Origin: Caldimonas caldifontis
GTDB lineage: Bacteria > Pseudomonadota > Gammaproteobacteria > Burkholderiales > Burkholderiaceae_C
Length of the DNA: 64,000 nucleotides
Assembly: GCF_002930615.1 (NCBI RefSeq)
Contig: NZ_PSNX01000002.1
Location: 248,001-312,000, forward strand
Reading direction: 5' to 3'
Shown here piece after piece: positions 41,396 through 58,043 of this stretch. The notes beneath the pieces are model-generated. The model had not been told where the DNA came from and did no database searches. It saw nothing but the letters and a program-made list of their open reading frames with translations. Position 1 is the stretch's first letter. Each line of letters opens with the position of its first letter. Made by a program: the position numbers and the translations under genes.

Positions 41396-41421
41396 ACGCC
41401 CCGCCCGCGCGGGGCGTTTTT
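41396..41421 (+). terminator. Rho-independent terminator of flgMN
   Basis: The 9-base stem ACGCCCCGC/GCGGGGCGT with tetraloop CCGC is followed by TTTTT. The T run ends on the stop codon of the convergent synthetase gene, so the two transcription units meet here. There is no T run on the minus side. Confidence 0.92.
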
Positions 41422-44400
41422 CATGGGGTGCCGCTGCCGAGGTGCTGCAGCGTGTGCCGCAGGTGGGAAGCGAGTCGATCCACGCCGGGCGGCTGCAAGA
41501 TGCTCAGGTGGTCGCCCGGCACGACACACAGGTCGAGCCTCCTGACGCAATGGTGCCAGCCGAGGTCGGGGTCCGGCGAGGGCGAATCACTGGCGCGCAC
41601 CAGCAGCACCGGGACCGTCAGCTCGCGCGGGCGGTACAGACGCCTGGCGCGCTGATAGATGCGATCGCGTGCGTGAGCCTGGGCCAGGTCCTCGCGTGCA
41701 TCAGCGTCGAGCCGGTGCATCGGCCCTAACCGGGGGGCCAGCAGGGTGCGCAGCTGACCGAGGCGCCTGGCGCCCGCGCGCCACAGGCCGGCCCAGCCTT
41801 GCGAGGACAATCGCTGATACTGCCAGCGCAGCCAGCGGCCCGCGAGCGCCCAGCGCCCCTGGGGGCAGCTCGTGTCGAACAGCATCACGCACTGCACCTC
41901 GTCACCCTGCTGGCGCAGCTGCTGCGCCATCTCATAGGCCAGCAGCCCACCGAAGGACAGGCCGGCCAGCCGGTAGGGGCCGTCCGGCTGGTGCTCGCGC
42001 AGCACACGCACGTAGTCTGCCGCGATCTGCTCCACCGTCACGGCCGCTCGCAACGGATCGCTGCGCGCATCCAGGAATCCGAGTTCTGCCGGCACGAAGA
42101 GGCCGAAGACCGGTGTGTGCGGCGCCAGGCGCTCGGCCAGCGGTTGATAGATGTGCACGCCACACACGCAGTACAGCGGCGGTTCGGTGCCCCGCGGCTG
42201 CAGGCAGACGATGCTGGCGGCCTCCACACGCCGCTGGGTGTCCAGGGCCTGGCTGAGCAGCGCCACGGTCGGATGGGCGAACAGCTGGGCGAGGCTGCAG
42301 GGCAGGCCCAGCTCCGCCTCGATGCGGTGCACGAGGCGTGCCGCCAGCAGCGAGTGGCCGCCCAGATCGAAGAAGTCTTCATGCACACCGAACTGCCGGT
42401 GCCCCAGTACCTCGGTCCACAGCGTCCACAGCGCCTGTTCGGCGCCGTTGCGAGGCAGCACGCTCGACTCCCCCCCTGACACATCGTCCGCGGGGGGCGG
42501 CAGGCTCTTGCGATCGAGCTTGCCGTTGGGCAGGACCGGCAGGTGGTCCACGAAGACGAGATGCTGCGGCTGCATGTAATCGGGCAGTCGCTCACGCAGC
42601 CGGGCCCGCAGGGCATCCCGCAGGTCATCCCGTTCGGCCGCGGGTTCGTCGCTGAGGATGTAGGCCACCAGACGGACATCGCCAGGTCGGTCCTCTCGGC
42701 GCATCACGACTGCGCGCGACACGCGGTCATGGCTGGCCAGCACGTCCTCGATCTCGAACGGCTCGATGCGGTGGCCGCGCAGCTTGATCTGGTCGTCCAG
42801 TCGACCCAGGTGCTCCAGATGGCCATCGGCGCGCCAGCGCACGCGGTCGCCCGTGCGGTACAGCCGACGGGCAGATGGGTCGAACCCCGGGCACCACTGG
42901 ACGAAGCGCTCGGCCGTGAGGTCCGGGCGCTGCCAGTAGCCCCGCGCGACGCCCTGCCCTGCGATATAGAGCTCCCCTGCGACGCCAAGGGGGCAAGGGT
43001 GGCGCTGGTCGTCCAGCACCCAGACCTCGGTGTTGTGGATGGGGCGCCCGATGTGGATCTCTTCGCGCCGTGCCGACCTGATGCGCGCGCAGGTGGACCA
43101 CACCGTGGTTTCGGTCGGGCCGTACATGTTCCATACCTCGGCGGCGCGGGTGATGAGCTGAGCCGCCAGTTCGTGCGGCAAGGGCTCGCCCCCCACCAGC
43201 GCCTTGAGCCCAGCGGTGCCGGACCATCCGGCGTCGATCAGCATCTGCCATCGCGATGGCGTGGCCTGCAGCGCGGTGATGCGGTGAACGTCGATGAGCC
43301 TGCGCAACTCGGCGCCGCTGGCGGCCTCCTCCTGGGAGGCGAGGATCACACAGGCCCCGACCGTCAGCGGCAGCAGCAGTTCCAGCACGGCAATGTCGAA
43401 GCTCAGCGTCGTCACCGCCAGCCAGCGATCGGTCGCCTCGATGCCCGGGGTGTCGCGCATGCTGGCCAGGAAGTTCACCACGCCATGGTGAGCGACCACG
43501 ACCCCCTTCGGGCGGCCCGTGGACCCGGAGGTGTAGATCACGTAGGCTGCGTCGAAGCTCCCCGGGTCGGGCGGCGTCCACGATCGCCCGTCTCCGGGTG
43601 TCAGTGACCTCAGCGCGACAACGGGAAGATCGGCCGCCCACTGCGGGCGCGTGGCGTCCACCAGCAGCAACGACAAGGCAGCATCCTCGGCCATGTCGGC
43701 CAGTCGCTGGGAGGGATAGGTCGGATCAAGAGGCACATAAGCTGCCCCGCTGCGCAGCACGCCGAGCACCGCGGCCACCAGGTCAAGGCCACGATCGAAG
43801 CACAGGCCCACCCGGTGGCCCAGGCCGATGCCCCGCTGGTGCAAGGTCTGGGCGATGGCTGCGCTGCGTTGGGCCAGTGCGCGGTAGCTCAGCGTCTGCC
43901 CCCCGCAGACCACCGCCGTGGCGTCCGCATGGGCCACAAAGGACGGCGCAAGCAGCGACCAGACATCCGGCGCCGGCAACGGCCGTGAGGGCCCCATCGC
44001 CAAGGCGTTCAGCTGATGCTGCTCCGCCGGCGACATCATCGGCAGCTCGCACACCGGCGTGTCCAGCGACGACGCCACGGCGGCCAGCAGGCGCAGGTAG
44101 TGGTCGAGCAGCCTTTCCACGCGCGACGCATCGAAAAGGTCGGTCGCGAACTCGAAGACAATCGAGCGGTCCAGCTCGGCATCCACCGTGACGGTCAGGT
44201 CGAACTGGGTGGCCTGCCGGTCGAAGTCCACACGTTCCCACTGAAGCGCGTCGAACTCGAGAGTGCCCAGTGGTGCGTTGACGACGTTGAAGAGCACCTG
44301 GAACAAGGGCGAGCGGCTGCTGTCGCGTGGCAGGCCCAGCTCGCGCACCAGCAGCTCGAACGGCATGTCCTGGTGGGCATACGCGTCCAGTGCTGTCTGG

Positions 44401-47400
44401 CGCACCTGGGTCAGCCACTCGCTGAACGGCAGGCGCGGGTCCAGCACCGATCGGAGCACCAGCGTGTTGACAAAGGTGCCCAACAGGTCTTCGGTGGCCA
44501 GGTGATGCCGATTGGCAATGGGCACGCCCAGCGCAAGGTCGCGATGCCCGGTATGGCGGTGCAGGAGCAGCTTGAACACGGCCATCATCACCATCGACAG
44601 GCTGGCCCGCTGCCGCGCCCCCAGCTCGGTGAGCGCGCGGATCAGCGACGGCTCCAGCGGCGCCCTCACCCGCGCGCCGCGGTAGCCCTGCCGCGCGGGG
44701 CGGGGGTGATCGGTGGGCAGTTCAGCCAGTTCCAGGCCGGCCAGCTGCTCGCGCCAGTAGGCCAGTTCCTCGTCATGCCGCTCACCGGCATACCACTGGC
44801 GATGCCAGGCGGCGAAGTCGGCGTATTGCCAGGACGCCGGCGCCACGGGCGAGGGGCGGCCGTGCAGGTGCCGCCCGTAGGCCGCACTCAGTTCGCGGGC
44901 CAGCACGGCGAAAGACCATTGATCTCCGATGAGGTGATGCTGCACGATCAGCAGCACGGCCTCCTCGTGACCCAGCGGCAGCAGGTGCACGCGCATCAGA
45001 GGGCCATGACTCAGGTCGAAGGGCTCGGCCGCCAGACGGGCCAGCTCGGCCTGGAGAGCCGCATCGTGCACCGATGTGATGCCCTCCGAGAGCGGCACGA
45101 CCTGCACCGGCATCGACAGCTGAGGCTGCACCCGGGGTCGCACGGCCTGCTCGTCCTGGATGAACACGGTGCGCAGGATGTCGTGGCGCGCCACGATCTC
45201 GGCAAAGGCAGCCTCCAGCGCAGGGCGGTCGAGACGCCCCGTCAGCCGGATCGCCAGGGGCATGTGGTAGGCGGTGCTCTGCGGCGCGAGCTGCTGCATG
45301 AACCACATGCGCTCCTGGGCATACGAGAGCACGGGCTGCACCGCACGGTGTCCCCAGGCCTGCATCGGCGACGGCCCTGCCTGGCCGGCCACGGTCCACT
45401 GGCGCGCAAGACCGGCGAGCGTCGGGGTTTCGAAGATCGCCCTCAGCGGCAGATCGGCACCCGCCGGGCCCCGCAGCCGGGACACCAGCTGGGTGGCACT
45501 CAGGGAATCACCGCCCAGCGCGAAGAAACTGGCCTGCGGATCCTCAGCACTCCCCGGGCCCAGGACGGCCTCCCACGCCTCGCGCAGCGCCTGAGGGATG
45601 GATGCGGCGCCGTCCAACTCGGACTCGGGAGCGCCGGAAGCCCAGGCCACCCCGGCCCATCGATCTCTCAGGTAGCGCTGCCGGGCGGCAGAACGCTGCG
45701 GCTTGCCGCTGGAGGTGCGTGGCAGGCTCCCGCTGCGCAGCAGCACCACATCCGCCACATCCACCTCGAACTCCGACGAGACCGCCCCTCGCAGGGCTTC
45801 GCGGACTTCGCGCGTGCGCGAAGGGCTCGGCTGGCCGCGGCATTCGGCCAGCAGGACCACGGCCTCTCGGCCATGGCCGTCGTCCGCACCGAAGGCCATC
45901 ACGCCATCCGGGCGCACGGCGGCATGCGCGATGGCCGCCCGGGCTTCGAGGTCGGACGGATGCAGATTGCGACCGGCGACGATGATGAGGTCCTTGAGGC
46001 GCCCGGTGACGAACACCTCCCCATCGATGAGGGTGCCCAGGTCCCCCGTGCGCAGCCAGCCCTGCGAATCCTCCGAGCCGGCGAGGCGCGCCGCGAAGGT
46101 CTGGGCGCTGGCCTGCGGCTGCCCCCAGTAGGCCTGGCTCACACTCGGTCCGCGCACCCAGAGCTCGCCCACCCGGCCCTCGCCCACCGGCATGCCGTGT
46201 TGCGGGTCCACCACGCGCACCTCCAGGGCGTCGATCGGAGTTCCGCAAGACACGAGGATCTGTGTGTCGGGCTCACCGGGTTCGCGCAGGCTCACCCTCC
46301 CCTGCTCCAGCGCTGATCTCGAGACGGTCTTCAGCACAGGGGCTTCGCACCACGGCGGCAGACTCACGGTCAGCACGGCCTCCGCCAGTCCATAGGCCGG
46401 CGCCCAGGCCTGTGGACGGAAGCCGTTGGCCTCGAAGGCGGTATTGAAGTCGCTCAGGGTGCGCGAGCGCACCGGCTCGGCCCCACAGACGGCCAGCTGC
46501 CAGCTGCTGAGATCGGCCGTCCACTGCGGCCGGCGCCGGCGCTCGGCTGCGCAGGCCGCATAGGCGAAGTCGGGCGCCCCAGTGACTGTGATGCGATGGC
46601 GCGCCACCGCTTCCAGCCAGCGCAGCGGGCGGCGCATGAAGGCCGCACGCGACATCAGGAAACACGGGACCCCCATGTACAGCGGCTGGATCAGGCCCTG
46701 CACCAGACCGTAGTCGTGGAACCACGGCAGCCAGCTCAGGATGCGCACCCCCGCCACGCGCTCCCGCAAGCGCTGCGCCAGCGCCTGGGAGTGGGCCAGC
46801 ACCTGGGCGTGGGTCAGCACCACCCCACGGGGGGTTTGTGTGGAGCCCGATGTGTATTGGAGGTAGGCCGGCGCGTGCGTTGCGGGCTGCGACTGGAAGT
46901 CCCGCGCTTCGGCCGGCGTACCCGCGCTGCGCCGCAAGGCGGCGGCCGTGATCCAGCGTGTACCGGTGCCCGAGGCCCCGACCTCATCTCCACCGTCGGC
47001 ACACACACCCAGCACGGCCTGCGCATCGCGGGCGATGCCTTGCAGCCGCTCCCAGCCACGCTCCCCCAGTCGCCGGTCCGGCGCCGGCGCGGGCACCGGA
47101 ACGATGCCAGCCACCAGGCAGGCCCAGAACAACTCGATGGTGTCGGGCCCGCCCTCGAAAGCCAGCACCACCCGCTCACCCGGCAATGCATACGCCTGCA
47201 AAGCCTGGGCCAGCGGCGTCACGCTGGCCTGCAACCCTGCAAAGGTCCAGGTCTGTGCGACGCCCCCGTCGTCATCGAGCCACGCGTAGGCCAGGGCATC
47301 GGGCTGGTCGAGCGCACGCCGCCACACGAGATCGCCGAGTCGGCTGATGCCATCAGGAGCAGGGGACGGTGTGAGACGCAGAGGCGCGAAGGTGTCAATA

Positions 47401-47414
47401 GGGGCAGCAGGCAT
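41421..47414 (-). CDS. FAAL-PCP-C-A-PCP-TE nonribosomal peptide synthetase (acyl amino acid maker)
   Basis: 1997 residues. Domains in order: fatty acyl-AMP ligase (about 20-590, [12 protein letters not shown] and [11 protein letters not shown]); carrier 1 (GGDSLSA, Ser near 635); condensation (HHLIGDQ near 823); adenylation ([13 protein letters not shown] near 1291, [16 protein letters not shown]); carrier 2 (GGHSLLA near 1686); thioesterase (GLSFGG, Ser near 1818, His in VVPGDHLS). The adenylation pocket reads D-I-L-Q-L-G-M-V-W-K by eye, close to the published glycine code DILQLGLIWK. The simplest product is an N-acyl-glycine released by the thioesterase; chain length is unknown. No ribosome site is obvious at ATG 47414. 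No phosphopantetheinyl transferase or tailoring gene is beside it. It lies 101 bases after the polysaccharide-type operon, on the same strand. Confidence 0.9.
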
Positions 47415-47515: not shown

Positions 47516-48538
47516 TTACCACAAGCCGTCGAATCGCACATCCAGCGGCAGGGCATGGATGCGCAGATGTTCGGGCAGCGGCTGCAGCGGACGCAACTTC
47601 ACCAGCAGTGACGGTGTGCGCGGCGACAGCGGGGAGACGCGCTCGGCCGGCAGTCGCTCGACGTGGGAAATGATCTCAATCACCTCGGCAGGTGCGCGGT
47701 GACCATCCGCAAAGTGCAAGGTGGCGCGGCGCCCTGGCTGCACACGCGAGGCCCTTGCGGGCTCCACGTAGGCCTGCACCAGGGCAGGAGCGGTGGACTG
47801 CAGCAGCAGGGCCTCGGTGCCTGCGGGTTGCCATTCTCCGGCGTGAAGGTAGACCTGGGCCACGCGCGCCTCGAAAGGCGCCTGAAGCTCAGCAGCGCGG
47901 GGCAAGGCAGCCGGTGTCGCTGCAGGTGCAGACGCCGCGGACCGCGCCGTCTGTGCTGCAAGATGCTCGGCCAGTTCCGCCTGGCTGCGACCGAGTTCGC
48001 CCTGCGCCTGCAGCCACAGCACACGGGCAGCCTCCACTTCCGGACGCGTGGCGGCCGACTGCGCAGCCAAGGCCTCCATGCGGACCAGTCGGTCGCGCCG
48101 CAGCTGGAGTTGCTGGGCGGCCAGGCTCACGGCCTGGCGAAGCGCCCGTTCGCGTGCCGACGACTGCCCGGCGTTCGCCTGCGAAGCCAGGGGGGGGGTG
48201 GTCGCCAACGACGCCGTCGGTGTGTCCTGAACCGGCGCCTGCATGCGCAGCACCGCAGCCCCGGCCGGCACCCGGTCGCCCACGGCCGCGATCTGCGCGA
48301 CCACGCCGGCCGACGGCACCCGCACGACACTCTGTTCGAGCACGACGGTGGCAGGCACCTGCGCCCACAGCAGGCCTGCCAGGAAGCGCAGCGCCAGGTA
48401 GGTCGGCGCCGCCAGCACCAGGGCCAGCAACAGGTACCAGCGCCAGCGCGGTACCTGACGCTTGGCCGCGGCGTAGCGCACGGCCACACCGGTGGGGTCC
48501 TGGCCTGCGCCGGGCGGGGCGTCGAAGCGGATCTTCAT
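47516..48538 (-). CDS. HlyD-like periplasmic adaptor (membrane fusion protein)
   Basis: 340 residues. One inner-membrane helix (about residues 32-58), a barrel-sandwich half motif (SVVRVPSAGVVAQIAAVGDRVPAGAAVLRMQ), a helical hairpin (about 120-200) and the second half motif (LQAPFEARVAQVYLHAGEWQPAGTEALLL). This is the HlyD/EmrA-type plan that links an inner-membrane machine to a TolC-like channel. It overlaps the TolC-fusion gene by four bases (ATGA). It also resembles the C-terminal part of alginate Alg44 but has no PilZ domain. It likely bridges the GT2 synthase and the fused outer-membrane protein. Confidence 0.88.
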   Translation of the reverse strand: MKIRFDAPPGAGQDPTGVAVRYAAAKRQVPRWRWYLLLALVLAAPTYLALRFLAGLLWAQVPATVVLEQSVVRVPSAGVVAQIAAVGDRVPAGAAVLRMQAPVQDTPTASLATTPPLASQANAGQSSARERALRQAVSLAAQQLQLRRDRLVRMEALAAQSAATRPEVEAARVLWLQAQGELGRSQAELAEHLAAQTARSAASAPAATPAALPRAAELQAPFEARVAQVYLHAGEWQPAGTEALLLQSTAPALVQAYVEPARASRVQPGRRATLHFADGHRAPAEVIEIISHVERLPAERVSPLSPRTPSLLVKLRPLQPLPEHLRIHALPLDVRFDGLW

Positions 48539-50646
48539 GGAGCGGCATCGAGATAGTGTTCAAGGGACTGCACGACCCAGCCCGCGTAGCGCGGGTGGCT
48601 CGACAGCGATCGGTGCCACGCCTGCCAACGCGCGAGAGCGGCGGCCCGGCCGCGCTGGAAGTGGCTGTGCTGCTCGTCGAGTTCCGGCTCCATGCTCCAG
48701 GCCAGCGCCACCTGCAGTCCGGCTGGAGCTGCATCCAGCGCCTGCCGCGCCAGTTGCAGCGCCCGCTCGCTGCGGGTGACATAGACCATGGCCGTGACCT
48801 CGCTGACGCCAGCATCGAGCAGCCTCTGACCCAGTCGGGCCTCGGTGAGTTCACGATAATGTGTGGTGAGGTGCAAGGGCCAGGCGGTGGCCTCCCGCAC
48901 CGCCCTCAGCGTGTCGATCACCCACACATCCCACATCCCCTGATCTTGCGCAGGCAACTGGCTGCGCTCGAGGTCCAGGTGCAGGGCGTCGAAGGGCCAG
49001 TCACCGAAGCGGCGCAGCAGCTGAAGCAAATCGGCGCGACGGTCGGGGCGCACCCAGCTGGGCTCACCGAGCAGCCATTCGACCCGCCAGCCACGCTCAC
49101 GAAGCTGGCCCAGCAGCGATCGCAGCGCCACCTGCTGCGATGGCTCGCGTGCCACGCGGTCCAGTGTGGCAGACCGCCACGACAACAGCAGACGCCCCGT
49201 GGACGGCGGCAGCCGGGTCAGCCGATCGGGGTGTGCCAGCAGCGATTCGCCATCCCACACATACCACCCCATCGGGCCCGTCGCCGGTCGTGCCATCGGC
49301 ACGATCGGCGTCATCGGCACCAGGGACAGCGCCGCCAGCACATCCTCCCCCGGAGCCCTCTCTCCGACCAAGGGGCTGCCGCAGGACGGATCCCAGGCCA
49401 GCAATTCGATCTCGGCACCATGGGCCCGGGCACGGGCATCGACATGCTCGATCACCGCCTGGTAAAGCGCATAGCGGGCCTGCACGGCGCGCTCGTATCC
49501 GTCACCTTCGAGCGCCTGGGTGCGCAGTCGGGCGATGCGCCAGGCCTCCAGGGCGGCGCTCACCCGTCGGGCGTAGATCTCCACCTCCCGTTCGCGCAGG
49601 GCCAGCTCGTCGAGCGCACGGTCGAGCGCCAGCGCCTGTTGCTCACGCTCCATCGCCAGCCGGGCTTCGGCCTGCTCGGCTGCGCTGAGCGACTGGGCCT
49701 GGCGTGCATCGTTCCAGCGGCGCCATTGCAGGGGCAGGCTCACATCCACGCCCACGAAGCTGCTGTATCCCCCGCTGCCGCCCACGTCACGGCTCAGGCT
49801 CTGCGACAGGGTGACCCCGGCCTCGATGCCGTCGAGCCGCCCGCGCTGCGCCGCGCGGCGGGCGGCCTCGCCTTCGAGCCGCGCCCGGGCCACCGCGGGT
49901 TGCGCTTCAGCCGCCGCGCGAAGTGCTTCGCGGCTGCGGCATGCCTGTGGCCAGCTCGGCCAGGCCAGCTCGCGCGCCGTCTCGTCCACCCCCTGCGCCG
50001 CCGCGCCCGCCCAGGCTCGCAATTCACGCGCGGCGTTGCGGGCGATGACGTCCTGCCGGGCCAGATCGCGCTCGACCGTGTCGGCCTGGGTCTGATAGGC
50101 CAGGTGATCGGCACCGAGAAGCAGCCCGGCGGCCTCGCGCCGGGCGAGGGCTTGCGCGACGGTCGCCTGGCTGCCCAGCCAGGCGCGTGCAGCGCTGGCC
50201 CGCTGGCGGGCGGCCACGAGGTCGAGATAACTGCGGCGGACCTGCTGGCGCACGAGCGCCTGGGCTTCGTCCACCTGCAGGTGGGCCACGGCCAGCGCCA
50301 CATCGGCCTCGTCCACTGCGCGCTGCGCGGCTTCACGGCTGCCCAGCAGGGGCCAGCGCAGGCCCACCTGGGCCTGGCCGCGTTCGTAGCGGCGCACGGC
50401 CGTGTCGGTCACGGGCTCGCGCACGCGGGCCAGCCCGGCACCCGCCTGCAGGCGCGGCCCGTCCTGGGCCCGCACGGCCTCCAGCCCCTGGCGCCGGCCA
50501 GCCAGCTCGGCCTCGCTCAGCCGCACGGCGAGGGCATGCTCGACGGCAGCCGCCTCCAGCGCGGGCAGCGGCAAGGGCTCCGAGGCCGCAACGGCACAGC
50601 CCAGGGCTGAGAGGGTCATGGCTGTGAGGAGACGCAGCAGCTGCAT
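48535..50646 (-). CDS. TolC-like outer-membrane protein fused to an uncharacterised barrel-like domain
   Basis: 703 residues. A signal peptide (MQLLRLLTAMTLSALGCAVAA) is followed by a TolC/OEP-type domain (about 25-440) with long heptad-rich helices: AQVGLRWPLLGS, DVSLPLQWRRWNDARQAQSLSAAEQAEARLAMEREQQAL. The last 250 residues (about 455-703) are not TolC. They begin GWYVWDGESLL and have alternating strand/helix stretches: FDALHLDLERSQLP, WPLHLTTHYRE, VTAMVYVTRSERAL and VALAWSMEPEL. This pattern suggests a (beta/alpha) barrel of the glycosidase kind, with acidic residues at strand ends. I do not recognise the family. The start is ATG 50646, two bases after the GT2 stop. The fusion would place a possible sugar-active domain at the channel, which I infer only. 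Confidence 0.85.
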   Translation of the reverse strand: MQLLRLLTAMTLSALGCAVAASEPLPLPALEAAAVEHALAVRLSEAELAGRRQGLEAVRAQDGPRLQAGAGLARVREPVTDTAVRRYERGQAQVGLRWPLLGSREAAQRAVDEADVALAVAHLQVDEAQALVRQQVRRSYLDLVAARQRASAARAWLGSQATVAQALARREAAGLLLGADHLAYQTQADTVERDLARQDVIARNAARELRAWAGAAAQGVDETARELAWPSWPQACRSREALRAAAEAQPAVARARLEGEAARRAAQRGRLDGIEAGVTLSQSLSRDVGGSGGYSSFVGVDVSLPLQWRRWNDARQAQSLSAAEQAEARLAMEREQQALALDRALDELALREREVEIYARRVSAALEAWRIARLRTQALEGDGYERAVQARYALYQAVIEHVDARARAHGAEIELLAWDPSCGSPLVGERAPGEDVLAALSLVPMTPIVPMARPATGPMGWYVWDGESLLAHPDRLTRLPPSTGRLLLSWRSATLDRVAREPSQQVALRSLLGQLRERGWRVEWLLGEPSWVRPDRRADLLQLLRRFGDWPFDALHLDLERSQLPAQDQGMWDVWVIDTLRAVREATAWPLHLTTHYRELTEARLGQRLLDAGVSEVTAMVYVTRSERALQLARQALDAAPAGLQVALAWSMEPELDEQHSHFQRGRAAALARWQAWHRSLSSHPRYAGWVVQSLEHYLDAAP

Positions 50647-50648
50647 GG

Positions 50649-51974
50649 TCAGAACTTGGTCTTGCGCAGCACCCACCACGGCGCCATCGAGGAATCGAGG
50701 TGCGCCTTCAGGAAAACTTCCTGCAGGGTGGACAGCGAGCAGTGCACACGGTTGACGAAGGCGAAGAGCGGAAAGAGGCACACCAACCCGAGATAACCCA
50801 GATCTTCCCGCGGGCGTTCGGACACCACCACCACGTAGAGCAGGAAAAACAGCAGCAGGGCTGCGAGATACACCAGGTACACGAAGCCCAGGATCCCGAG
50901 CACGGCCCCGGCCGGCAGCGTCCAGAACAGCAACCCGGTGTAGGCCACGATCATGAAGGGCATCACCACCTGCAGGAACAGGCCGTTGAAGGTGACGAAC
51001 AGAAAGTTCGGCCAGCCCAGCAGCCTGGGGCGCAGGTTGTGGCGGAACTTGCGCACGTAGAGGTAGAAGAGGTCACCGTCCCAGCGCAGACGCTGGCGGA
51101 AGAAGCCCATCCAGGTGTGCGGTGCGTCGGTGTGGCCCACCGCGTGCGGGTCGAAGACGATGCGCAGGCCCGGGTGGCGGCCGAAGTACTGCTTGATGCG
51201 CAGCGTCATGTCCAGGTCTTCGGCCGTGCCGGCATCCCAGCCGCCCAGGTTGCGGATGAAGGCGGTGCGGAACACCCCGAAGGCACCGGAGATGTTGTTG
51301 ACGAGGTTGAACTCCGACAAGCCCGTCTTGCCGGCACCGATGGACAGCATGTACTCCAGAGCCTGCAGCCGCGCCACGAGTGAACTCTTGGCGTTGCGCA
51401 CGCGCAGGCAGCCGGCCACGCCCACCACGCGCGGGTCATCGAAGTGCCGCGTGGCATGGCGCACCATGTCATTGTCGAAGGAGGTGTCGCCGTCCAGGGC
51501 CATCACCACCTCCCCCGTGGCCATCTGCAGGCCGGCATTGAGAGCCGACACCCGCCCGCCACGCTGCCACTTGGGCAACACGACGAGGCGTCGCCTCGGC
51601 ACGCCTTCGACGAGGTCTTGCGCACGCCGTGCAGCCTCCAGCGTGGCACGGTTCTGCACGGCACCGTCGATCATCGCGATGATCTCGATGTGACCAGGGT
51701 AGTCCTGCTGCGCCAGGCTGTGGATGGTCTTGCGCACATCCTCGCCTTCCGAATAGCAGGTGATGAGGCAGGACACACGCGGATAGCGCTCACGCTGGCG
51801 GTCGGGCCGGTGCTCGCGCAGGCCGAAGCGCACGATGCCGGCCGTCACCAGCAGGTACAGCGGCAGCTCCAGCAGCAGGACGAAAGGAAAGAACTTGAGG
51901 GCGATCTCCAGCCAGCCCTGCTCGCTGGTCGACAGGATGAGCGTACCGAAGGCATGGACGGCCTGGTCCCACAT
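50649..51974 (-). CDS. Processive family 2 glycosyltransferase (PgaC/NodC/BcsA-like)
   Basis: 441 residues. A membrane helix near the N-terminus precedes the GT-A domain. Motifs: VMALDGDTSF (DGD metal site), GTAEDLDMTLR (catalytic EDxD) and RQRLRWDGD (QxxRW). At least three more helices follow at the C-terminus, the layout of inner-membrane synthases that make and extrude beta-linked polymers such as poly-GlcNAc, chitin or cellulose. No PilZ domain is present, so any c-di-GMP control must come from another protein. It starts two bases after the zinc-ribbon gene stop (ATG 51974). The sugar cannot be told by sequence reading alone; PgaC-like is the nearest guess. Confidence 0.9.
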   Translation of the reverse strand: MWDQAVHAFGTLILSTSEQGWLEIALKFFPFVLLLELPLYLLVTAGIVRFGLREHRPDRQRERYPRVSCLITCYSEGEDVRKTIHSLAQQDYPGHIEIIAMIDGAVQNRATLEAARRAQDLVEGVPRRRLVVLPKWQRGGRVSALNAGLQMATGEVVMALDGDTSFDNDMVRHATRHFDDPRVVGVAGCLRVRNAKSSLVARLQALEYMLSIGAGKTGLSEFNLVNNISGAFGVFRTAFIRNLGGWDAGTAEDLDMTLRIKQYFGRHPGLRIVFDPHAVGHTDAPHTWMGFFRQRLRWDGDLFYLYVRKFRHNLRPRLLGWPNFLFVTFNGLFLQVVMPFMIVAYTGLLFWTLPAGAVLGILGFVYLVYLAALLLFFLLYVVVVSERPREDLGYLGLVCLFPLFAFVNRVHCSLSTLQEVFLKAHLDSSMAPWWVLRKTKF

Positions 51975-51976
51975 GC

Positions 51977-53371
51977 TCAGGCTTCTGCCAGACGCTGCAT
52001 CAGGCGTTCGCAATCATCGCCGGGGCGCACGTCCTCTGGGGCGGCCAGGCAAGTGATGCGCGCGCGCAGCGAGGCGTCGGGATCTGTTCCGGCCTGCTGC
52101 GCCAGCAGGGCCTCCACCCGCGCCGCAAGGCCGGGTGCATGCGAGAAGGGCAGGAAGAGCCACAAGCGCTCCTCGGCCGTGCGCGTGCTCACGTCGGAGG
52201 TGCGCAGCAGCTCGTGCAGGCGGCGCGCGAATTCGTCGAGCATCAGATAGGCCCGCGCCGCACCGTGGCGCTCGACGAACTCGGCGGAGTTGAGGAACTC
52301 CACCATCATCAGCCCGAATCGCATCTCGGCATGGCGCGACTGCGCGGCCAGGGCCCAGTCCACCAGCTGGCGGAACTGGGCGGGCACCACATAGTTGGCG
52401 CTGTCCAGCGCGGCCATCGACTCCTTCACCTGGCCGGCGCGCAGCGCCGCACGGCCATGGGCGCTCAGCCGCAAGGCGCTCACCTCACGCACATCCAGTT
52501 CGCTGGGCTCGGCGGTGGTCGCGCAATCGAGGCAGCGCACCACCACGGACGACTCGACAAACACATGGTGGCAGCTGGCACAGGCGAGCTGGGTGAGCGG
52601 GCGATCGTAGTCCACGCCGATGTGGCGCAGGCGCGCCGCGCACTTGGGGCAACTCAGGCCGGTGTCGCCACGGAAGTCGGCCTCGGGCGCCACATGCCCG
52701 CAGGTGAAGCAGTGCAGCGACAGCGACTTGTGGATCTCGATGCTGCTGCAGTGCGGGCAGACGTCGAGATAGTGCAGATGGGCGCTGCCACAACCCCGGC
52801 AGTGGCGGGTTCGGTCGATGAGCCGGGAAGGCTCGAGCAGCCCGCGCCGGATCAGGGCCACGACGCCGGCGCCGGCATCTTCGCCTTCGCGCGCGAGCAG
52901 CTCGATCACCGGGTGTCGGTACAGCGCCAGGCTGTGCCGGTCGCACACCGGCGCCAGTTCGGCCCCATCGCGCTGCGCCAGGAAGTAGAGCACCCGTTCA
53001 TCAAAGTGCAGGCCAGCGGGGTCCAGCCCCAGCGTGCGACGCACGGCCAGGGCGCGTTCACCGGCCTGGCGCGCCTGCTCCACGCGGCCTTCCCCGTCGA
53101 TCCAGGATGCAGCCGCCCCAGCCTCCTCCGACCACACGGGGCGGTCCCACCAGGCCGATCGGCGGATCTGCTCCACCAGGGCGCGCCGCCCGGCATCGTC
53201 CCACCCGGTCAGGTAGAACGCCAATGCCTCCACCCCCGCGGCCGTGAAGGCCTCCCATGAATCATAGGCGGCGCCACGGGTGGACGGGTCCGATGCACGA
53301 GGCCCCCGCAGGACGGCCACGTGCAGGCGGCGGGTCTCGTCGGCCGAAGCGGCGAGCAAGTCAGTGAACAA
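51977..53371 (-). CDS. Multi-zinc-ribbon (TackOD1-like) protein with degenerate GGDEF-like domain
   Basis: 464 residues, soluble. The N-terminal 185 residues contain a helical region of no known family. Residues about 190-300 hold six CxxC pairs (CRGC, CPHC, CFTC, CPKC, CASC, CLDC), enough for three zinc ribbons, as in TackOD1 output domains. The C-terminal 150 residues look like a GGDEF fold (RFGLMMVEFLNSAEFVERHGAARAYLMLDEFARRL, LWLFLPFS), but the GGDEF motif is gone, so it may sense or bind rather than make c-di-GMP. The only good start is TTG 53371, with GGAG seven bases before; no in-frame ATG lies nearby. It is the first gene of the GT2 operon. ATTGTA at 53423-53428 could be a -10 box (TACAAT on this strand). 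Confidence 0.75.
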   Translation of the reverse strand: MFTDLLAASADETRRLHVAVLRGPRASDPSTRGAAYDSWEAFTAAGVEALAFYLTGWDDAGRRALVEQIRRSAWWDRPVWSEEAGAAASWIDGEGRVEQARQAGERALAVRRTLGLDPAGLHFDERVLYFLAQRDGAELAPVCDRHSLALYRHPVIELLAREGEDAGAGVVALIRRGLLEPSRLIDRTRHCRGCGSAHLHYLDVCPHCSSIEIHKSLSLHCFTCGHVAPEADFRGDTGLSCPKCAARLRHIGVDYDRPLTQLACASCHHVFVESSVVVRCLDCATTAEPSELDVREVSALRLSAHGRAALRAGQVKESMAALDSANYVVPAQFRQLVDWALAAQSRHAEMRFGLMMVEFLNSAEFVERHGAARAYLMLDEFARRLHELLRTSDVSTRTAEERLWLFLPFSHAPGLAARVEALLAQQAGTDPDASLRARITCLAAPEDVRPGDDCERLMQRLAEA

Positions 53372-53500: not shown

Positions 53501-53525
53501 AAAAGGGCGCCATCTGCGCCCTTTT
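53501..53525 (-). terminator. Terminator after the fliA-chemoreceptor operon
   Basis: A perfect 10-base stem AAAAGGGCGC/GCGCCCTTTT around CATCT gives a T4 tail on both strands. It lies 9 bases after the chemoreceptor stop and also isolates the GT2 operon's upstream region. Confidence 0.92.
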
Positions 53526-53533
53526 GACTCGAA

Positions 53534-54889
53534 TCAGAACTGGTAGGCCAGCCTCAACCCTCCCCAGTGCCGCCCGTCCACCAGGATGGGCGCAGAGACT
53601 TCTTTCATCAGCACGAAGCGCCCGCCCCCCATGTCGCGGCGATAGGTCTGCAGCAGGAAGGGTCGGCGGTTGCGGGCGCTCGCCAGGCCGGTGCGGTCGT
53701 TGAAGACGCGGCGATAGCGGCTGTTCGCCGTGTTCCACACCACGTCGCCGGGGCGTTGGGGCTGGCAGTACTTGCGGTTGTGGGTGGGCACATAGCCATT
53801 GCGGTCCACCGCGATGCAATAGACGACCTTGGGCGAGAGTTCGAGCAGCTTTTCCTGAACCTGCGGGAACAGCCGATCGGCCAGTCCCACGAACCGGGTC
53901 TCCACCTGCGGCGGGTTGGTGCCGGCGATCGGACGGTAGTGCTCATCGAACAGATCGGTGGCGCTGATGGAACCGGTGCGAACGGCATCTTCCAGGAGCT
54001 TGCTGATCTGTGCGGCCGCTTGCTGGGCCGCCTGGATGTAGGGGGTGTCCTCGGTTTCGATGCCGCTGGCGGCGGTGAGTTCCATCAGGTGCTCGCTCAC
54101 CTTCAGGAAGGACTCGCTGCGTGCCATCGCCTGCTGCAGGGCCTGTGCCGCGCCGCGGGTCTCGCGCTCGATGAGCGCCATCTCCTCGTTCATGCCCTGG
54201 CTGAGCTGGCGGCTGTGGGCGGCGGCCTGGGCAATGCGGTCCACGCCTTGCTCCACCTCGGCCAACGCCACGTGGAAGGCGCCCTGCCAGCCATCCGCAC
54301 CATCGCTGCGGATCTCGCGCGCCAGGGTGCCGATGCGCGAGTCCAGCGTGCCCACGGTGCCCATGATCTGCTTGGACGAGGCCTCCACCTTGGCGGCCAG
54401 GTCTTTCACGGCATCGGCGACGACGCCAAAGCCGCGCCCGGCCTCGCCGGCACGCTTGGCCTCGACAGATGCATTGAAGGCCACCAGACGGGTCTGCATG
54501 GCGATTTGCGTGATCTGCTGGGCAGCCTCCGCCACTTCGCGCAGAGTATCGACGACACCTGCCACTTCGCGGCCCACGTCCTCCACCGCCCCGCGCGCCT
54601 TGGCCACCGACTGAAGGCTGTGCCCGGTGACCTCGCTGATGCCATCCTGGGACTTGACGATCGCCTGCAGGTGCCCGGCCAGGGTGGCCACCGCCTGTTG
54701 CTGCCGCTCGGCCCCCTTGATGCTGTCATCCAGCACCCCGCGCACCTCGGCCGCCTCTCGGCCCAGGCCGGAGGTCTCCTTTTGCAGTGATTGGATCAAG
54801 GCCTTGGCGTCCATGCCAGGCGAGGGCGTTGAGGTGGATACCTCCTGGGCAGGGCCTTGGCCCTCTCGACCACGGAACAAAGACAGCAT
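53534..54889 (-). CDS. Soluble methyl-accepting chemotaxis-type protein with C-terminal sensor
   Basis: 451 residues and no membrane segment or HAMP domain. The chemoreceptor signalling hairpin is at about 60-250, with FNASVEAKRAGEAGRGFGVVADAVKDLAAKVE as the tip (consensus [20 protein letters not shown]). The sensory part comes after it: residues about 320-451 resemble a Cache/PAS-like ligand domain (VVYCIAVDRNGYVPTHNRKYCQPQ, VFNDRTGLASARNRRPFLLQTYRRDMGGGRFVLMKEVSAPI). This order is unusual for chemoreceptors. The start is ATG 54889, five bases after GGAGAC. It follows fliA by 37 bases, so it belongs to the late flagellar/chemotaxis output; its ligand is unknown. Confidence 0.88.
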   Translation of the reverse strand: MLSLFRGREGQGPAQEVSTSTPSPGMDAKALIQSLQKETSGLGREAAEVRGVLDDSIKGAERQQQAVATLAGHLQAIVKSQDGISEVTGHSLQSVAKARGAVEDVGREVAGVVDTLREVAEAAQQITQIAMQTRLVAFNASVEAKRAGEAGRGFGVVADAVKDLAAKVEASSKQIMGTVGTLDSRIGTLAREIRSDGADGWQGAFHVALAEVEQGVDRIAQAAAHSRQLSQGMNEEMALIERETRGAAQALQQAMARSESFLKVSEHLMELTAASGIETEDTPYIQAAQQAAAQISKLLEDAVRTGSISATDLFDEHYRPIAGTNPPQVETRFVGLADRLFPQVQEKLLELSPKVVYCIAVDRNGYVPTHNRKYCQPQRPGDVVWNTANSRYRRVFNDRTGLASARNRRPFLLQTYRRDMGGGRFVLMKEVSAPILVDGRHWGGLRLAYQF

Positions 54890-54926
54890 TTTCAGTCTCC
54901 TCGATCTGGGCGCCAAGGTGGGCGTC

Positions 54927-55640
54927 CTACCACTCGCGCAGCTTCACGCGCAGGCGTGCGATCGACTGGCTGTGCAGCTGGCACACCCTCGATTCCGTCA
55001 CGCCCAGCACGGCGGCGATTTCTTTCAGGTTCATGTCCTGCTCGTAATACATGCTCATCACGTATTGCTCGCGCTCGGGCAGGGTCTTGATGGCGGCCAC
55101 CAGTGCCGCGCGCAGGCGGTGGTCATTGAGCTGACTCAGCGGATCGGCTTCCTTGTCGGCCACGTGACGGTCCAGGTAGTCCTGGTCACCGTCATCGCCA
55201 CTCATGTCTTCCAGGTACACGAGCTGGGTGCCACGCACCTTGCCCAGCAGTTCCTGGTACTCGGACAGGCTGATGCCCATCTCCTTGGCGATCTCACTTT
55301 CCATGGGCGCGCGGCCCAGCTTCTGCTCCAGCTTGTGGACGGCTGCCTCGATGGAGCGCTGCTGCTTGCGGCTGCCCCGGCTCATCCAGTCGGCGCCGCG
55401 CAGCTCGTCGAGCATGGCGCCGCGGATGCGCTGGGTGGCGAAGGTCTCGAACTGAACGCCCTGCCCCGTGTCAAAGCGGCTGAGCGCATCGTTCAGGCCG
55501 ATCATCCCGACCTGGATCAGGTCGTCGATCTCCACGTTCGCCGGCAGCTTGGCAATCATCTGGTGCGCCAGGCGGCGCACGAGCGGGCTGTACTGCTGCA
55601 GCATCGCGTTGTTGTCGAGACGGCCTTTGGCGGTGTACAT
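54927..55640 (-). CDS. fliA: Flagellar sigma factor FliA (sigma-28)
   Basis: 237 residues. Region 2 has LVRRLAHQMIAKLPANVEIDDLIQVGMIGLNDALSRFD with GVQFETFATQRIRGAMLDELR; region 4 has LPEREQYVMSMYYEQDMNLKEIAAVLGVTESRVCQLHSQSIARLR. FliA drives late flagellar genes such as flgM (promoter at 40533) and probably fliS. It is held by FlgM until hook completion. It lies 17 bases after flhG. Confidence 0.96.
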   Translation of the reverse strand: MYTAKGRLDNNAMLQQYSPLVRRLAHQMIAKLPANVEIDDLIQVGMIGLNDALSRFDTGQGVQFETFATQRIRGAMLDELRGADWMSRGSRKQQRSIEAAVHKLEQKLGRAPMESEIAKEMGISLSEYQELLGKVRGTQLVYLEDMSGDDGDQDYLDRHVADKEADPLSQLNDHRLRAALVAAIKTLPEREQYVMSMYYEQDMNLKEIAAVLGVTESRVCQLHSQSIARLRVKLREW

Positions 55641-55657
55641 GAGGGAGCGCTCCGGGT

Positions 55658-56467
55658 TCAGTTGAACGCGTGATGGGCAGCACTGGCCTGCGCCCGCAGA
55701 GCGGGGCCGGACCAGTCGTCGCCATCGCCGCCTTGCACCGAGAACGGCAAGGCGTGATGCAGCAAGGTGGTCGACAGCAGATGCAGGGCCTGTGCGAGCT
55801 CGGTCTCGGACTGCATCGCCGTGCTGGTCAGCGCGGCCAGGTGAACCGTGCCGCCGAGAAAATCCTGGACGCAGCGCGCCAGCCGCGTGGCCGCCATGGG
55901 AACGCCCAGCGTGGGGGCCGCAAGATCCATCACCACCGCATGCTCGCCGATGCCGGCGTACTGCAGGAGGATCTTGATGGCGGCATAGGCTTCGGTCAGG
56001 CTGGCCGGATCGTCGCTGGTGAGCACCAGCGGACGCACGCGGCGGTTGGCAAAGAGGCCGCTCAGGATGGCTGCGTCCGCATGGAAAGCAATGACATCGG
56101 CACTCGGGGCGGCCTCGCGCAAGGTTTCGAACAGCAGATCTGCCGAACCGGGCTCCTCACCGAACCAGGCCAGCGTCGGGCTGGCGGCCAGCACCGAGGT
56201 GTGGGCATCGAGCTCGTCGATCCACTGGCCGAGATCGAGGTCGCGCGCGATGGCCTCGGCCACGTCCACGCCGGTGGTGTAGGGGCTGGGCGCAGCATCC
56301 ACCACGAGGGTGTGCAGATCCTGCGCGGCAAAGCCCTGGCACAGCCCCTCCAGCAGCACATGGGCGCCCGGTGCATACGGATTGGCGGCCACCGGCAGCA
56401 GGTGCACGGTGTGGTGAGCAAACAGCCGGCGCAGGCCGTGTGCCTGATCGAAGGCGCGTTCAGACAT
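55658..56467 (-). CDS. flhG: FlhG/FleN homologue without a P-loop
   Basis: 269 residues. Its place between flhF and fliA and its N-terminal helix FDQAHGLRRLFA (the DQAxxLR motif that stimulates FlhF GTPase) identify it as FlhG/FleN. The nucleotide-binding site is lost: where KGGVGKT is expected it reads AANPYAPGAHVLLE, and no deviant Walker A lysines remain. Walker B-like LVVDAAPS is weak. It should still act on FlhF but not cycle with ATP as MinD-type FlhG does. The ATG at 56467 overlaps the flhF end by eight bases; an upstream in-frame start at 56491 is less likely. Confidence 0.82.
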   Translation of the reverse strand: MSERAFDQAHGLRRLFAHHTVHLLPVAANPYAPGAHVLLEGLCQGFAAQDLHTLVVDAAPSPYTTGVDVAEAIARDLDLGQWIDELDAHTSVLAASPTLAWFGEEPGSADLLFETLREAAPSADVIAFHADAAILSGLFANRRVRPLVLTSDDPASLTEAYAAIKILLQYAGIGEHAVVMDLAAPTLGVPMAATRLARCVQDFLGGTVHLAALTSTAMQSETELAQALHLLSTTLLHHALPFSVQGGDGDDWSGPALRAQASAAHHAFN

Positions 56468-58043
56468 GCACAGCCCCCATCTGGCCAGCACGCGCAGCAG
56501 GCGGTGCCGTGAAGACCAGGTTCACGTCGTCGCGGTCGAGGCGGTAGGCGGCACTGCCGCCGCCGCGCAACGCGCGATGCACCAGGGCCTGGGCCGACAT
56601 GCGGTGCCAGTCTTCCGGCACGCGCTGGCCATTGGCCACGCCCAGCACCGGCAGCTTGTGGCGGATCACGGCGTCGAGTGCGGGGCCGAGTTTCACGGCT
56701 TCGTCGATCTTGGACAGCAGCACACCCTTGCACTGGTTCGCGCGGTAACCGATGAGCACATCTTCGATCGTCTCGCCCTGGGCAGCGGCATTCACCACCA
56801 GCAGACGCTGGATGCTGCGATGGCTCACCATCTCCAGCAGCTCCTGGGTGCGGCTGTCGCGCTGGGCAATGCCGGCAGTGTCGATGAGCACCATCTTCTT
56901 GGAGGACAGCAGCTCAAGCAGGTCTTCCAGCGCCGCACGGTCATGGGCCGTGTGCACGGCCACGCCGATGATGCGGCCGTAGGCCCGCAGCTGTTCGTGA
57001 GCGCCGACCCGATAGGCGTCGAGCGTGACCAGACCGAGATTGGAGGCGCCGTACTTGGCGGCAAAGGCCGCCGCGAGCTTGGCGGTGGTGGTCGTCTTGC
57101 CCACGCCCGTGGAGCCCACCAGGGCGTACACGCCGCCCTCATCCTCCAGGGCCGGGCCGTTCTCCCCGGTGATGAGGTTGCGCTCGAGCACACCGGACAC
57201 CCAGGCATTGAGGTCACCGCCGTCATTCGGCGTGTGGGCGGCCAGTTTGCGGATCAGGGCCGGCGAAAAACCACAGTCCAGGAGCTTCTGGGTGAGCTGG
57301 GCCTGGGCCGGGTTGCGCTGCATCTTCTCCATGAAGGCCAGGGCACCGAAGCGTTCTTCGATCAGGCCCTTCATCTCACGGAGTTCGGCAATCATCGCGC
57401 GGCCTTCGGCTGCAGGGGCTGCGGCGGGTGCCGGCGCCGTCCAGGCCGCGTCGTCGGCCAGCGCAGGCACGGCCTGAGTGGCGGCCACAGGCGCCGGGGT
57501 GCGCATGGCGGGGGCCGGAGGCTGGGCCATTGCCTCCTGGGCCAGGCGCTCGGCCTTGCGTTGGGCCGCACGCTCGGCAAGGCGCTGCTCCAGCGGCAGG
57601 CTGGCAGGCGCCTTGCCCACGGGAGCCGCACTGCCAGCCGCCAGCGACGTCGGGTGCGTCGCCGCGGCAGCCGTCTGGGCCTGCTGCTGCAGGGCGGCCT
57701 GGCGGCGCTTGAGCATGCGTTCGCGCACATAGTCCTGGAAGGACAACGTGCTCATGGCCAGTTGCTCCACGTCCTTGGCGACGGCCTGCCCAGCGGCCTG
57801 CGGTGCCTGGGGGGGCGCTGGCCTGGCCTTGGGCGCCGTTGAAGCCGCCTTGCGCGACGGCGCGGCCGACGCAGGCTCGTTGAAGGTCTCCAGTGCGGCC
57901 ACGCTTTCCGGGGCCATCGCCAGCACCTCCACGCCTTCCTTGCAAGGACGGGTGGACAGGATCACGGCGTCTTCGCCGAAGGCCTGGCGCACCTGCACCA
58001 GGGCGTCTCGCGAGGTTTTCGCGACAAAGCGTTTGACGTTCAT
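56460..58043 (-). CDS. flhF: Flagellar placement SRP-type GTPase FlhF
   Basis: 527 residues. N-terminal B domain with MNVKRFVAKTSRDALVQVRQAFGEDAVILSTRPCKEGVEVLAM, then a long Ala/Pro/Gln-rich linker (about 60-215). The NG GTPase domain starts near 290 with P-loop GSTGVGKTTTTAKLA (about 309-323), LDAYRVGAHEQLRAYGRI, VLIDTAGIAQRD and SKIDEAVKLGPAL. FlhF marks the cell pole for flagellar assembly. The linker is longer than in short FlhF proteins. It overlaps flhA by four bases. Confidence 0.95.
   Translation of the reverse strand: MNVKRFVAKTSRDALVQVRQAFGEDAVILSTRPCKEGVEVLAMAPESVAALETFNEPASAAPSRKAASTAPKARPAPPQAPQAAGQAVAKDVEQLAMSTLSFQDYVRERMLKRRQAALQQQAQTAAAATHPTSLAAGSAAPVGKAPASLPLEQRLAERAAQRKAERLAQEAMAQPPAPAMRTPAPVAATQAVPALADDAAWTAPAPAAAPAAEGRAMIAELREMKGLIEERFGALAFMEKMQRNPAQAQLTQKLLDCGFSPALIRKLAAHTPNDGGDLNAWVSGVLERNLITGENGPALEDEGGVYALVGSTGVGKTTTTAKLAAAFAAKYGASNLGLVTLDAYRVGAHEQLRAYGRIIGVAVHTAHDRAALEDLLELLSSKKMVLIDTAGIAQRDSRTQELLEMVSHRSIQRLLVVNAAAQGETIEDVLIGYRANQCKGVLLSKIDEAVKLGPALDAVIRHKLPVLGVANGQRVPEDWHRMSAQALVHRALRGGGSAAYRLDRDDVNLVFTAPPAARAGQMGAVHV

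Follow-up and report, generated by a model that had tools for sequence, protein, structure and literature searches.

A putative polysaccharide synthase and export operon of Caldimonas caldifontis with a TolC-type channel fused to a predicted glycoside-hydrolase-like barrel

In the synthase-dependent polysaccharide systems Pga, Bcs, Alg and Pel, a processive family 2 glycosyltransferase (GT2) with the motifs D, DxD, ED and QxxRW is combined with a tetratricopeptide repeat (TPR) scaffold and a beta-barrel porin, and the enzymes AlgL, BcsZ, PelA and PgaB are credited with cutting, editing or clearing the chains. How sugar polymers leave Gram-negative cells without such a TPR/porin exporter is an open question. 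Partial precedents exist. For cyanobacterial cellulose, a route through XcsA, the HlyD-like XcsB and TolC was proposed, for which validation is reported to be missing, one reason being that the genes are scattered (PMC12430437). BgsBA includes a HlyD-like partner of the GT2 synthase (PMC9495663) and Alg44 carries a membrane fusion domain (PMC8461298). Here we describe a four-gene locus of Caldimonas caldifontis that encodes a GT2 synthase together with TolC- and HlyD-like proteins, and in which the TolC-like protein continues into a predicted C-terminal barrel. The locus lies in a stretch of 64,000 nucleotides (contig NZ_PSNX01000002.1, positions 248,001 to 312,000), called the window in the following, and its features carry window coordinates. 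The initial annotation had contrasted it with the TPR/porin systems. TolC and HlyD are indeed paired with a GT2 here, but this pairing is not unprecedented, given the Xcs route and the BgsBA and Alg44 partners.

Open reading frame (ORF) calls and direct reading place all four genes on the minus strand. They encode, in this order, a TackOD1/GGDEF protein (51977..53371, 464 amino acids), a processive GT2 glycosyltransferase (50649..51974, 441 amino acids), the TolC fusion (48535..50646, 703 amino acids) and a HlyD-like periplasmic adaptor with an N-terminal membrane helix (47516..48538, 340 amino acids). The first two junctions are gaps of 2 bp each and the third is an overlap of 4 bp, so that the genes overlap or lie within two bases of each other, as first annotated. 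Above the Pfam cut-offs, the proteins matched TackOD1 (PF18551, 190 bits, cut-off 32), Glyco_tranf_2_3 (PF13641, 82 bits), OEP (63 bits) and HlyD_3 (PF13437, 41 bits). Pfam found no TPR and no porin family in the four proteins, OEP (TolC) standing in their place, and no transporter family (ABC, RND, MFS) either; the inner-membrane enzyme of the set is the GT2. Within the fusion, the TolC/OEP part covers residues 1-440, with a signal-like N-terminus and the start of a linker (49327..50646), and the C-terminal (beta/alpha)8 barrel covers residues 457-703 (48538..49278). On balance, we favour the reading that the locus encodes a polysaccharide synthase-and-export machine, the TolC channel of which carries at its C-terminal end a predicted glycoside-hydrolase-like barrel with a likely role in cutting or trimming the polymer on the periplasmic side.

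The locus shares parts with several described systems. The XcsA-XcsB-TolC system likewise has a GT2, a HlyD-like adaptor and TolC as one proposed conduit, and its set includes an endoglucanase, XcsC. However, its synthase bears PilZ or PCR, its TolC is encoded elsewhere and its glucanase is separate (PMC12430437), whereas in our case a single operon contains a hydrolase-like domain fused to TolC and a TackOD1/GGDEF gene beside a GT2 without PilZ. In the case of Alg8/Alg44 and BgsA/BgsB, the likeness lies in the pairing of a GT2 with a protein whose periplasmic part is of the membrane-fusion (HlyD-like) type; the differences are that c-di-GMP binds to the Alg44 PilZ domain or the BgsA C-terminus, that alginate exits by AlgE and that there is no TolC fusion. 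The Pga system, which produces poly-N-acetylglucosamine (PNAG), differs in its TPR/porin exporter PgaA; its deacetylase domain is absent here and the barrel had no significant match to a thin profile of three GHL13 sequences. The processive GT2 motifs of Pga, Bcs, Alg and Pel are shared, but their TPR scaffold and porin are not. Searches of the open literature, a scope outside which most subscription papers fall, yielded no account of a TolC-barrel fusion or a TackOD1-GT2 operon. The TolC-hydrolase-like fusion, TackOD1 as a conserved partner and the operon family without a found description are new.

Structure prediction of the barrel gave a (beta/alpha)8 fold with a predicted local distance difference test (pLDDT) of 96.2 and a predicted template modelling score (pTM) of 0.92. 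The prediction of a TIM barrel for the C-terminal domain of the fusion is thus a confident one, and its acidic pocket is conserved. The acids D558 and E560 at the end of strand 4 (codons of D558-L-E560, 48967..48975, minus strand) and E653 after strand 7 (codon 48688..48690, minus strand) were unchanged in 62 of 62 barrel sequences from many phyla, and W464 and further aromatic residues were invariant in the same alignment (A2). This comprised 62 of the 69 sequences available from the window and from 68 of the 80 loci described below, seven near-duplicates and 12 unpicked loci being excluded. The nearest folds in the fold search were Cwp19, GH18, PslG and PgaB. In the case of Cwp19 (GHL10), the likeness extends to a tryptophan on strand 1, a tryptophan followed by an arginine after strand 3, an acid on strand 4 and a tyrosine on strand 6, and the difference is a glycine where the barrel has E653 (PMC5765458). 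The initial annotation had named as contrary evidence that the C-terminal part might turn out to be a normal TolC extension or an unrelated domain without a conserved acidic pocket. Neither outcome appeared. The sugar-active domain which it had considered possible in the outer-membrane part has a fold like that of glycoside hydrolases, and a sister family links it to them at the sequence level as well.

At the sequence level, the window barrel matched no Pfam family and the Pfam matches of other barrel members were weak and scattered; PF00704 (GH18) was absent among the 25 listed of the 35 families matched by the 62 barrel members. The barrel profile reached the solved structure 10yv (‘Putative GH97 from Cellulomonas fimi’) directly with an E-value of 0.0017. 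A weak genome match led to a sister barrel, a secreted-looking protein of 309 amino acids in genome G224. The profile of window-type barrels matched the sister family of 25 members with an E-value of 2.4e-13 over 245 columns and this family matched 10yv with 2.3e-14, so that 10yv is also reached by a two-step profile link. In the alignment, D558/E560 pair with the invariant D141/E143 of the sister family and M620/Y622 with its invariant M218/Y220, and the invariant sister E253 likewise falls in the region of strand 7, offset from E653 by a few columns. A DxE on strand 4 with an MxY on strand 6 is what we take to be reminiscent of GH18. The full GH18 motif on strand 4 is DxxDxDxE, of which the barrel has the final DxE alone (FDALHLDLE), and in the GH18 comparison only the nine columns FDALHLDLE versus FDGVDIDWE were aligned. 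Four of the 25 sister members touch Pfam GH18 weakly (best value 0.0019). The sister family had 792 matches, 120 of them listed, and the alignment (A3) holds 25 of these 120; those matches that carry a name are mostly ‘hypothetical protein’.

The sister barrels have a gene context of their own. In G224, which has no TackOD1, the operon reads GT2, TPR/YaiO porin, sulfatase and barrel. In G403, GT2, sulfatase and sister barrel lie on one strand with an intervening ORF without a Pfam name, and a third, short contig, L202, carries a sulfatase and a sister barrel. The arrangement of GT2, TPR/YaiO porin, sulfatase-like membrane protein and secreted sister barrel, represented by L193 (528-6975) and L201 (5094-11443), is a second, apparently undescribed operon type. 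It resembles the window locus in having a homologous barrel beside a GT2, and differs in that the TPR/YaiO porin (L193) replaces TolC/HlyD and the barrel is unfused. Because sister barrels sit beside GT2 and sulfatase genes, the barrel accompanies GT2 synthases outside the four-gene system too. When 143 genomes were searched with the sister family, the only match was the TolC-fused barrel of G182. The window locus thereby draws attention to a hydrolase-like family that Pfam does not list.

The window GT2 contains the motifs D103, DGD, AED and QRxRW. Its catalytic letters (first D, both D of DGD, E-D and Q/R/R/W) were each kept in 54 of 54 aligned sequences, i.e. the window and 53 others, and Pfam found glycosyltransferase families only and no PilZ in this protein. 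The top NCBIfam match was PgaC/IcaA with 148 bits against a cut-off of 422, followed by a NodC-type chitooligosaccharide synthase with 84 bits. Identity to PgaC of E. coli was 31% over 250 residues, and the solved relatives were headed by a family-2 transferase with hyaluronan synthases next. The NodC-type match, and scores far under every equivalog cut-off, would fit a GT2 that produces a short chain or a glycolipid, TolC and HlyD then exporting a small product and no matrix polysaccharide. With a PNAG polymerase as the best match and hyaluronan synthases among the nearest solved relatives, such a product seems improbable to us. As to the sugar of the polymer, the GT2 together with the GH18-like pocket permits a guess at an N-acetylhexosamine.

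Barrel patterns were used to scan species genomes; 110 relatives were confirmed, and the 80 best were studied as loci. TackOD1, GT2, barrel and HlyD all lie on one strand in 78 of these 80, the two others (L034 and L035) being cut by contig ends, and a gene order kept in this way is beyond chance. The window order was found in 73 loci (52 fused, 18 with the barrel alone, three with TolC as a separate ORF) and a rotated order in five, all fused. HlyD stands beside the barrel in every locus. The fusion occurs in 58 of the 80, a share that is not an unbiased estimate in a sample found by barrel patterns and limited to the best 80 of 110. Among 46 listed proteins, the window's own included, 43 measure 681-782 amino acids and have room for both parts (alignment A1 contains 44 of 47 proteins and omits P0002 as identical and P0008 and P0037 as short). 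The fusion is therefore no local frameshift or assembly artefact. By record title, the sources are Pseudomonadota, Thermodesulfobacteriota, Myxococcota, Planctomycetota and Synergistota, with single metagenome-assembled genomes (MAGs) labelled Bacillota and Cyanobacteriota; many records are MAGs and the phylum labels are tentative. A viral collection contained no relative of the fusion. The neighbourhood survey proposed in the initial annotation yielded a recurrent set, with a processive GT2 in 79 of the 80 loci. The main inference of that annotation stands, and its interpretation as a whole is supported in part.

In a GT2 tree of 87 rows, the loci with the barrel alone were nested among fused lineages, 17 of the 18 in one Pseudomonas part and the other being L084, with at least three changes between the two states (quick method, 27 open forks). 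No barrel-alone locus had a TolC profile match (E <=0.001) within up to 10 kb on each side. The five standalone barrels that were read by eye have a signal-like start or, in L084, a lipobox-like one. On the simplest reading, Pseudomonas apparently lost the TolC half and retained a secreted barrel, and a general TolC would substitute there. L084 is a MAG labelled Synechococcus, the GT2 of which branches with Gammaproteobacteria; it is perhaps mis-binned or transferred. The peb locus of P. putida, considered with pea as the Pseudomonas form, was rejected, as its listed genes comprise an acylneuraminate cytidylyltransferase and two GT2s and no TolC/HlyD (PMC4287175).

TackOD1 has been described as an output domain found chiefly in archaea and also in some bacteria, with an obscure function (PMC5847659). 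The window protein has six CxxC motifs and qualifies for PF18551, and its Pfam GGDEF match of 22.5 bits lies slightly under the cut-off of 23.8. The earlier label of a zinc-ribbon regulator was right about the zinc ribbon, which is TackOD1, but incomplete, since the protein also has a GGDEF domain without GGDEF and with RxxD. In an alignment of the window protein with 60 picked ORFs, the GGDEF motif was missing at the aligned site in all 60 readable rows (the row of L032 is split and unreadable there) and RxxD was retained in 59 of 61; L020 has a loose GGDEF-like pattern elsewhere in the protein. PelD, which also adjoins a polysaccharide synthase, takes c-di-GMP through RxxD in a degenerate GGDEF domain and one further arginine (PMC8461298). 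A candidate for this third arginine stands at D+28 in 49 of 61 rows and at D+25 in 10, the window included, in whose group the arginine is shifted; either position is occupied in 58. PelD further differs in having membrane helices and a GAF domain in the place of TackOD1. Retention of RxxD with loss of GGDEF suggests a c-di-GMP receptor, and judging from these residues binding by this predicted regulator is plausible. In two of four barrel-less TackOD1-GT2-HlyD loci, L127 (11027-13069) and L123 (9678-10676), a PAS-GGDEF-EAL or REC-HD gene is adjacent; such neighbours hint at c-di-GMP.

Gene order, fusion, conserved residues and the recurrence of the set are direct observations, and the folds are predictions. 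In the mechanism that we infer for polymer, export route, hydrolysis and c-di-GMP binding, the GT2 would build a chain from an activated sugar and move it across the inner membrane, and the HlyD adaptor would form a periplasmic bridge to the TolC tunnel. Because the TolC fold has its C-terminus on the periplasmic side, a trimer would place three barrels beside the tunnel entrance, where they might cut, edit or clear the chain. By analogy with PelD, the TackOD1/GGDEF protein could be the on-switch, with c-di-GMP at the RxxD site.

Several observations weigh against this reading. Firstly, some sets do without the barrel. For a second sample, TackOD1 took the place of the barrel as the criterion; it consisted of 274 genomes of the class and shared two genomes with the first (G087, which is the L032 contig, and G221, which overlaps L051). 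TackOD1 matched in 20 of them, 12 strongly (E <1e-50). Among these 12, the whole set was found in four (G000, G221, G182, G087) and a divergent barrel with GT2 and HlyD in two of one genus (G104, G245), whereas four (G174, G100, G290, G247) had GT2 and HlyD with no recognisable barrel. The set is in fragments in G306, and the 17 kb read of G280 contain TackOD1 but neither GT2 nor HlyD. The core is therefore TackOD1-GT2-HlyD, which the barrel often but not always joins as a fourth part; as barrel-less sets exist, it is dispensable in some lineages. Relatives outside any glycan context, which the initial annotation had named as contrary evidence, amount to the TackOD1 gene of G280; no barrel was seen outside a GT2 context in loci with enough DNA. 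At L121 (7624-11433), where neither GT2 nor HlyD occurs in 17 kb, the TackOD1/GGDEF gene precedes genes for a response regulator and a PhoR-like kinase and may have a different role. A barrel-HlyD fusion in L126 (6680-11204) was dropped: the gene looks frameshifted, since one ORF combines barrel-like with HlyD-like stretches and the GT2 is fragmentary.

Secondly, no family member is characterised, and neither polymer nor activity is known. Cwp19 and GH18 barrels are the closest folds, but direct comparison of the barrel profile with GH18, GHL13 and DigH was non-significant, as it was with DeoC; DigH was used alone and GHL13 as three sequences, which are thin profiles, and Cwp19 was compared by fold only. 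Foldseek lists DeoC and other non-glycosidase barrels at comparable E-values, and by itself does not set glycosidases apart from other barrels. XIP (OsXIP), XAIP (XAIP-II), concanavalin B and the tamarind lectin (TCLL) are also near in fold, and these proteins are enzymatically inactive. Such inhibitors and lectins, the lack of any member with known activity and the invariance of W464 and the other aromatics are what one would expect if the polysaccharide were exported and the barrel were a non-catalytic sugar-binding domain, as in chitinase-like lectins, that holds the chain and guides it into TolC. A pure binder, though, would hardly retain all of D558, E560 and E653, which are constant throughout the barrel alignment and have invariant counterparts in the sister family, and we consider this role unlikely. 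Thirdly, regarding c-di-GMP, RxxD is common in the other GGDEF proteins of the genome (19 of 25 motif strings, some of them not true sites; the genome has 30 GGDEF matches). Moreover, c-di-GMP genes were not enriched near the 80 loci, with three GGDEF genes among 1274 picked ORFs beyond the set's own.

Upstream, a 10-base inverted repeat with the stem AAAAGGGCGC (53501..53525, direct reading) lies between a methyl-accepting chemotaxis-type gene (PF00015) and TackOD1. It is perhaps a terminator that marks the upstream edge of the operon; the terminator scan did not flag it, and a sigma-70 promoter scan found no promoter. The same flank (53534-58043, minus strand) contains fliA-, flhG- and flhF-like genes by their translations, so that the four-gene set adjoins flagellar genes. 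Downstream, 101 bases past HlyD and on the same strand, lies a nonribosomal peptide synthetase (NRPS)-like gene (41421-47414, 1997 amino acids) with the Pfam domains AMP-binding, PP-binding, Condensation, AMP-binding, PP-binding and Thioesterase, perhaps a lipopeptide or lipo-amino-acid synthetase. From this proximity, TolC and HlyD could be thought to serve the NRPS, with the GT2 as a bystander. This is highly improbable in view of the conservation of the four-gene set in nearly all loci and of the flanking clusters seen in at least four of them: these were checked with Pfam (five named, one unnamed), and the named ones are not NRPS.

Whether the operon family forms a widespread, undescribed secretion class, in which TackOD1/GGDEF gates the GT2 and the chain passes via HlyD into a TolC bearing three cutting enzymes at its periplasmic mouth, is a possibility that we put forward tentatively, at somewhat short of even chances. 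If true, export and chain cutting would be united within one particle, and no earlier outer-membrane factor would have had a carbohydrate-active enzyme as part of its own chain. The joint operon of GT2, TolC and HlyD, kept across phyla, and the presence of channel and hydrolase-like domain in a single polypeptide make a direct test of the TolC route possible in culturable bacteria. Bacterial TackOD1 proteins, the function of which has been called obscure (PMC5847659), would thereby gain a first testable role.
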